Source: an uncultured Erythrobacter sp. (GTDB taxonomy: Bacteria > Pseudomonadota > Alphaproteobacteria > Sphingomonadales > Sphingomonadaceae). Taken from it: DNA of 64,000 nucleotides. Position 1 is the stretch's first letter. Each line of letters starts with the position of its first letter. Below, one piece after another: positions 39,214-41,063 of this stretch. The stretch spans positions 124,001 to 188,000 of the forward strand of contig NZ_CANMIJ010000002.1 in assembly GCF_947497915.1 (NCBI RefSeq). The letters are read 5' to 3'. Under the pieces are notes generated by a model. The model was not told the origin of the DNA and ran no database searches. It worked only from the letters and a program-made list of their open reading frames with translations. Made by a program: the position numbers and the translations under genes.

Positions 39214-39450
39214 GCAAATGTGCGGCGAGGCAGCGCGCCGCGCGCCTCGCTGGTTGCCCAGCCTTTAACGTAAGAAGGCCAGTGAGGTGAGCGCGCCAAA
39301 GGACGCGGCGATGGTACGGGGTTCAGGTGTGTGTGCCGGCTGCGATCTTAAGACAGAATATGGCGGGGTAGGAAAGACAAATGGCCGCTCGCGTGTAGTT
39401 AGCATTAAGAAATGGATCTATTCGAGCAAGAAACGTGCTAGCATAGTCAA

Positions 39451-39882
39451 ATGAACAAGATTCAACGAATTTGGCAACAAAAGTACGTCCCTGTCATAGT
39501 AAGGCGCAGCGGCAATGGCAAACAACATCGCGTTCGCCTACCATTTCGCGGCGACAATCGAGAATGGCTAAGAAACGAGCGCCGCTCGCGACCTGTTTGG
39601 GTGTCCGACAGAAAGTTTTGGGAAATTCCGAAGGCTTGGTTCAATGATTTTGTCGAGCGCAGCTTAGATCGTTTCGAAGTAGTCTGGATTATTCAGCCTT
39701 ACCGCGAACAAGAGGTTTGTGCATCGGCATGCCTTAACGCTCAAGGCCACGAGTGCCAATGTTCTTGTATGGGGGCGAACCATGGAACTGGAAATGATGG
39801 CTCTTGGTTCGAAGTAAGCGAAGCATTCGCTGTCAAATGGGGCGAGAGTAAATGGGCCTGTAGACTGCTGGAAAAGAAATGA
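39451..39882 (+). CDS. Cys-rich small protein, candidate metal-binding partner in a two-gene cassette
   Basis: CASACLNAQGHECQCSCMGANHG (C-x3-C-x7-C-x-C-x-C-x4-H); ATGA overlap with next ORF. Confidence 0.75.
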   Translation: MNKIQRIWQQKYVPVIVRRSGNGKQHRVRLPFRGDNREWLRNERRSRPVWVSDRKFWEIPKAWFNDFVERSLDRFEVVWIIQPYREQEVCASACLNAQGHECQCSCMGANHGTGNDGSWFEVSEAFAVKWGESKWACRLLEKK

Positions 39883-41063
39883 GCACGCCAGCACTTACAT
39901 CTAGAGAGAAATCCATCACGAAGAAGCTGATCGCTGATGGCGAAGCTTATCAAGATGTTCAGCAACTAATCAATACCGGACGAAACCCAACTATAAACCC
40001 CGGGCGTTTGGCTGGCTCAGCGAATTGGGATGTTGAATCAGCGACTGACGACGAGGTTGCACGGTATCGCTATGAAAAATCACTAGTGGACTTGAAGAGT
40101 GGGTTATCACCGATCGATAACGAGCGGCTCTTTAGAGCGCGTGAGGCGATGATCGCTGCCGTCGACGCATTTAACAGCCCCACTCTTTTGTTCAAAGTTC
40201 AAATATTCCCAGTATTGAGCCAGATCGCATGGACATATTTGCTTCATGAATACTATTTTAGAAAAGGCGTCGAAATCATTAACGGTGATGGAAACTCACT
40301 TTTGCTTAGTCAAATTTTAAATCGAGAAGATTGCCCTCTCGAGGGCGATGTTGCTAAGAATTTGCGTGCCGTGAAGATTCTACGCGACGAGGTTGAACAC
40401 AAACTGCTCGCATCCATCGGACGAGCCTATTGGCCTCTTTTTCAAGCCAATTGCCTAAACTTTGATCAAACAATCAGAAAGCTATTTGGGGAAGATGCAG
40501 GTCTGCGTGACGTGCTCTCTTTATCCCTACAATTCGGACAGATGCAGCTCGACCAACTTTCGAAGCTACAGCAATACGATCTATCGCCAGCCATCGAAGC
40601 AATCGACACGGCTATTGCTGTTGCCACAGGGTTAGATGGTAACGAAGGTCCGAACTACCAATTCAAAGTAAGTTATCATTTCGAGAAAGCCACTAAAGGT
40701 GATTCTCACATAGTATTCTCTAAGAACAATCCCGGCTCTTCTACTGTGGCTAATGTCCTCACGCAAAAAGTAGTCGGAGATGAGCTTTGGCCGCACAAGC
40801 CATCACACGTAGTGCGAAAAGTAAGAGAGCAAACGGGAGAGAATTTCAATCAACACCAGCATACACTAGCCTGGAAAAAATACGGCGCGAGGCCTCGGAG
40901 TAATGCAAAGAACGCAAACGACTGCAAAAAGGATTTTTGCCACTACCACTCAGCACACAACGACTACACTTACTCCGATAAGTGGATCGAGTTTTTAGTC
41001 GGTGTGGTGACCGATGCCGACGAATTCAAAAAGCTGAAGATATATCAACCAAAAACTGGATGA
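39879..41063 (+). CDS. DUF3644-like protein with N-terminal HTH
   Basis: N-terminal LTSREKSITKKLIADGEAYQDVQQLINTGRNPTINPGRLAG; AVDAFNSPTLLFKVQIFPVLSQIAWTYLLHEYY; LRDEVEHK. Confidence 0.75.
   Translation: MSTPALTSREKSITKKLIADGEAYQDVQQLINTGRNPTINPGRLAGSANWDVESATDDEVARYRYEKSLVDLKSGLSPIDNERLFRAREAMIAAVDAFNSPTLLFKVQIFPVLSQIAWTYLLHEYYFRKGVEIINGDGNSLLLSQILNREDCPLEGDVAKNLRAVKILRDEVEHKLLASIGRAYWPLFQANCLNFDQTIRKLFGEDAGLRDVLSLSLQFGQMQLDQLSKLQQYDLSPAIEAIDTAIAVATGLDGNEGPNYQFKVSYHFEKATKGDSHIVFSKNNPGSSTVANVLTQKVVGDELWPHKPSHVVRKVREQTGENFNQHQHTLAWKKYGARPRSNAKNANDCKKDFCHYHSAHNDYTYSDKWIEFLVGVVTDADEFKKLKIYQPKTG

Follow-up and report, generated by a model that had tools for sequence, protein, structure and literature searches.

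The closest described relatives of the locus reported here are HEPN proteins. In the part of their 2013 survey that treats these families, Anantharaman et al. (PMC3710099) listed DUF3644 among the new HEPN families and described EC042_2821, which overlaps DUF3644, as an active HEPN domain that occurs in R-M operons, in fusions with wHTH, REase and ZnR domains. This survey was the only paper naming DUF3644 in the literature searched, and the PDB copy searched held no solved structure of the family. HEPN proteins are also the toxins of known toxin-antitoxin pairs (HEPN/MNT; PMC7641770, PMC4621449).

We analysed a stretch of 64,000 nucleotides from an uncultured Erythrobacter sp. (the window), in which two genes, ORF1 and ORF2, lie next to thiC. 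On balance, we think it probable that they form a horizontally acquired defence cassette, composed of a HEPN ribonuclease effector (ORF2) and of a metal-binding, probably nucleic-acid-binding partner (ORF1). The features of the locus are the following (positions in the window).

39376-41063, no strand: cargo slot next to the thiC 3' end (from the G012 alignment)
39451-39882, plus strand: ORF1, small Cys-rich protein of an unnamed family, 143 aa (ORF list, library searches, purifying selection)
39490-39699, plus strand: ORF1 alpha/beta N-terminal domain, residues 14-83 (AlphaFold2, pLDDT ~90)
39718-39783, plus strand: ORF1 C-x3-C-x7-C-x-C-x-C-x4-H, residues 90-111, probable metal site (invariant ligands in relatives)
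39879-39882, plus strand: ATGA overlap of the ORF1 stop and the ORF2 start, translational coupling (same overlap in 5 of 5 pairs)
39879-41063, plus strand: ORF2, DUF3644 / PDC-S19 HEPN-family protein, 394 aa (Pfam and PADLOC matches)
39900-40082, plus strand: ORF2 N-terminal helix-turn-helix-like domain, residues 8-68 (structure model)
40128-40598, plus strand: ORF2 DUF3644 (HEPN) core, residues 84-240 (Pfam; all-helical model of low confidence)
40383-40400, plus strand: ORF2 HEPN R-x4-H catalytic motif, R169-x3-E173-H174 (conservation in relatives)
40791-41048, plus strand: ORF2 C-terminal winged-helix-like domain, residues 305-390, with a subgroup-specific C-x2-H-x2-H-x-D patch (model, weak PF18740 match, alignments)

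The two ORFs and the ATGA overlap reported by an earlier, sequence-only reading of this DNA were confirmed at these positions, as was its remark that they sit in DNA richer in A/T than the surroundings. Indeed, the GC content of the pair is 46.9%, whereas the window averages 58.2% (sd 2.3); the pair is its AT-richest 1.6 kb, with none of the 312 blocks of that size lower in GC. In a comparison with three other genomes, pN/pS ranged from 0.13 to 0.39 for ORF1 and from 0.10 to 0.29 for ORF2, with synonymous sites near saturation. Both genes are under purifying selection, and these values indicate that they are real and old protein-coding genes.

The content of the slot next to thiC differs between genomes. 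G012, which belongs to the same genus and has a thiC 98.5% identical over the compared part, aligns with the window up to position 39375 and again from 41064, the thiC stop, onwards; instead of the pair, its slot holds a gene for a 657-aa GHKL ATPase in DNA of 44% GC. This GHKL-type ATPase (L185:694-2667) weakly matches PADLOC TmtA. The slot of G282 contains one lipocalin-like and one membrane-protein ORF of native GC, and that of G153 contains DUF488/PDC-M19A-like and PDC-M19B genes. In addition, five genomes of the family (G235, L157/L186; G153, L184/L187; G313, L162; G224; G329) carry a partial second thiC 3' coding end about 0.5-1.7 kb downstream of the intact thiC, which suggests that insertions have occurred here more than once; in the window, no thiC 3' remnant was found to the left of the cassette. 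From the differing contents of the slot and the second thiC ends, we conclude that the thiC 3' slot is a recurrently exchanged cargo site. The thiC-HTH locus of the sister strain G012 thus lacks the pair and carries another AT-rich gene, which, together with the composition of the pair and its presence elsewhere in Henriciella, supports the horizontal acquisition that the earlier reading had proposed.

ORF2 matches the Pfam model of DUF3644 (PF12358) with 115.9 bits (gathering cut-off 27.6, E=2e-33), as do 12/12 of its relatives tested, which bears out the DUF3644-like core claimed from sequence. It also matches six PADLOC PDC-S19 models (best E=1.6e-46), one of which, PDLC04950, spans residues 83-386 (E=1e-43). 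The claim that no nuclease motif was recognisable proved wrong: the RDEVEH segment (R169-D-E-V-E-H174), which lies within the quoted 'LRDEVEHK' and had been overlooked, is the HEPN R-x4-H signature, and R-x3-E-H is kept in 35/35 scorable DUF3644 relatives, a count that leaves out three further loci with no matched segment containing the motif. The structure model of ORF2 is confident only at both ends, and these parts support the HTH-like regions proposed there: N-terminal helices cover residues 8-19, 24-32, 41-44 and 57-68 (pLDDT mostly 78-92), and the C-terminal part follows a helix-helix-hairpin-helix order (HH-EE-H, pLDDT 60-91). The HEPN core is helical with low confidence (mean pLDDT 60.9), and a fold search of the PDB with this model, poor in its core, gave no match; the HEPN assignment therefore rests on published profile work and on the motif. 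Judged from its sequence, ORF2 is a member of the HEPN superfamily, of the already known DUF3644/EC042_2821 type, and a candidate RNase. Two genomes carry divided DUF3644 genes, in two pieces with about 2.3 kb between them in G215 (L012, L019, L029) and in two nearly adjacent frames in G246 (L013, L020).

The Pfam name of PF18740 would make ORF2 a DNA restriction enzyme, and its C-terminal part does match this model weakly, below the cut-off (20.3 bits against 24.9, E=8.7e-4). We find this hardly credible: only 4/12 relatives match PF18740, all of them weakly, and no conserved PD-(D/E)xK motif was seen in the alignment, inspected by eye. This reading was rejected on the sub-threshold score and on the model, in which the matching C-terminal domain looks like a winged helix and not like a REase. 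The two HTH-like domains of ORF2 and the Cys-rich ORF1 might instead point to an ordinary regulator pair with a housekeeping role, in which ORF1 would sense metal and ORF2 would be a transcription factor of the HTH type. Such a role is very improbable, since the genes are sporadic (ORF1 in 6/301 and ORF2 relatives in 12/301 genomes of the order), the composition is foreign and the HEPN motif is invariant, and on these three points a regulator-only reading was rejected; the PADLOC match also argues against it. The anti-phage role that the sequence-only reading had raised as a possibility appears likely, given the PDC-S19 matches and the HEPN family.

The ORF1 family is new to the libraries searched, having no name, domain or fold match in them. 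No family reached threshold for ORF1 in Pfam, NCBIfam or PADLOC, none of its 56 relatives matches Pfam (0/56), and the comparison with solved structures gave nothing convincing by sequence or by fold (best E=0.09). The sole library match is weak: over the Cys cluster, ORF1 matches phrog_6842, an entry of unknown function, with E=7.6e-4. The AlphaFold2 model is fair (pLDDT 82.4, pTM 0.81). The Cys/His cluster is exactly as the earlier reading had written it (C90-x3-C94-x7-C102-x-C104-x-C106-x4-H111); none of its six residues (five Cys and one His) varies in the 56 close relatives, and the same six are invariant at about 30% identity in relatives from Streptomyces, Nocardia and Arthrobacter, including Streptomyces phages. 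In two Streptomyces phages, the ORF1 relative adjoins helicase or primase genes. On the S. rimosus plasmid pPZG101 (L202:2327-3157), an ORF1-like domain and an endonuclease VII domain are encoded in one continuous open frame; the start annotated for the gene falls within the ORF1-like part. These neighbours and this fusion suggest that ORF1 works on nucleic acids, and we infer that it binds metal and probably also nucleic acid.

The ORF1-ORF2 pair is real but rare. Five adjacent pairs were found (the window, G051, G192, Sphingomonas arenae and Henriciella (H. barbarensis)), in the same order, and a further class-level draw of 385 genomes gave no additional one. Four pairs lie at thiC in Sphingomonadales, and their ORF1s form a supported clade (99/97); the fifth lies in Henriciella, at another locus whose 14 kb contain no thiC, and its ORF1 is a long unplaced branch. 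All the ORF2 relatives found at 60% identity or more have ORF1 upstream; more distant ones have no ORF1 within the flanks examined. The ATGA overlap is kept in 5/5 pairs despite the near-saturated synonymous change, which supports the coupled unit proposed earlier, and this conservation is partly co-inheritance because four of only five pairs share one locus in related genera.

Decay was seen in two places: the Sphingomonas arenae pair has a frameshifted ORF2 and an intact ORF1, and in Sphingosinicella YJ22 a broken ORF1 alone is left at thiC, ORF2 being gone. An intact paired-type ORF2 together with a broken ORF1 was seen in no genome, which would suit a toxin-antitoxin system. In such a system, the leading gene, ORF1, would neutralise the HEPN toxin encoded by ORF2 and serve cassette stability and possibly abortive infection; the antitoxin-first order with coupling and the HEPN toxins of HEPN/MNT pairs (PMC7641770, PMC4621449) would suit it as well. 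Yet ORF1 is widespread alone, carries no MNT or known antitoxin domain, and most DUF3644 genes are without such a partner, so that we consider this system improbable.

A scan of genome contigs returned about 150 stretches encoding ORF1, mostly from alphaproteobacteria and usually without ORF2, the best 80 of which were kept. Among 111 ORF1 loci from all sources, 49 have a member of ten gene clusters within three genes, these ten being nine clusters from named systems plus ORF2 itself. By neighbour cluster, the loci comprise CBASS (13), E1/JAB (9), AbiE (8), Gabija-like (6), IetAS (5), Shedu (4) and ORF2 (4). The CBASS effector, E1/JAB, GajA and IetS clusters were identified by PADLOC or Pfam tests of representatives, Shedu and, in one plasmid, AbiEii from the annotation of the plasmid record, and the others, AbiE included, by reading the cluster sequences. 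Further neighbours that were tested are GajB, a Swt1-type HEPN protein, a Schlafen AlbA_2 protein and a DUF3800/PDC-S51 protein. As a control, a total of 147 kb with 120 annotated genes, drawn from three of the same plasmids, showed only toxin-antitoxin pairs; the enrichment is a count against this small control and is given no P value, since the loci, chosen by similarity, are related to one another. The ORF1s of Acetobacter fabarum and of G128 (L050, L025) are nearly identical, a sign of recent transfer between orders.

ORF1 is therefore not an obligate partner of ORF2, as most of its relatives stand without ORF2, beside other defence genes, and its gene is often outside the operon of its defence neighbour. 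This raises the question of whether two independent genes of a defence island share an operon by chance, ORF2 being a stand-alone HEPN protein and ORF1 a separate cargo with its own role. The numbers lend this some force: ORF1 occurs in 150 stretches, only a few of which also have ORF2 alongside, most DUF3644 relatives are without ORF1, and beside CBASS, ORF1 usually faces the effector gene from the other strand, in convergent orientation and outside its operon (for the effector cluster, 11 neighbours at position 1-). A chance association fits poorly with the overlap maintained in every pair through near-saturated synonymous change and with the occurrence of the pair at two different loci in two families; we hold it to be unlikely, while giving it serious weight. 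The same neighbourhoods might also make the ORF1 family a shared accessory of alphaproteobacterial immunity, that is, a small metal-/nucleic-acid-binding protein recruited beside unrelated systems (CBASS, Gabija, AbiE, IetAS, Shedu, E1/JAB and HEPN/DUF3644) and aiding phage sensing or effector control, a generalisation that we put forward as speculative and rather doubtful.

In the two-gene defence cassette that we favour, ORF2, with its N-terminal HTH, HEPN core and C-terminal winged helix, would be the ribonuclease effector. Upon infection it would probably cut host or phage RNA and growth would stop (abortive infection). ORF1, translated just ahead of ORF2 and coupled to it, would most likely sense phage-derived nucleic acid or restrain ORF2. 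The ORF1 family is well conserved, has no name and recurs beside many defence systems; should ORF1 prove a functional partner, it may represent a common accessory step across unrelated systems, and this small, translationally coupled pair is a convenient case for testing such a partnership.

Compared with known systems, ORF1 bears a loose likeness to the SMARCAL1 HARP domain: its residues 14-83 weakly resemble in structure a phage SMARCAL1/HARP-like protein (viral A0A8S5QI99; Foldseek TMt 0.69, rmsd 2.9, E=0.82). ORF1 differs from it by the added Cys/His cluster and by having no helicase, and HARP membership was dropped as no Pfam HARP match appeared even at E up to 10. With HEPN/MNT modules (HepT/MntA), the pair shares an arrangement of two adjacent genes, one of them HEPN; the gene families differ, and ORF1 is not a nucleotidyltransferase, no such domain being found with Pfam, NCBIfam or PADLOC. 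PADLOC PDC-S19, whose six models ORF2 matches, is a single-gene candidate judging by its label, whereas the ORF2 of this locus is coupled to a second gene. Finally, ORF2 has in common with the EC042_2821/DUF3644 family (PMC3710099) the domain and the R-x4-H motif, together with an HTH-like part at the N-terminus and, at the other end, a weak match to the EC042_2821 C-terminal model. It differs from the family, as characterised in the relevant part of that survey, by a winged-helix-like and not REase C-terminus, by standing in no R-M operon and by its coupling to ORF1, a gene absent from that description. The sequence-only reading had put forward the whole module as a candidate undescribed one; this does not hold for ORF2, whose family was put in the HEPN RNases in 2013 and is listed by PADLOC, and which alone is one more member of a candidate defence family, but it holds for ORF1, undescribed in the libraries searched and the new part of the pair.
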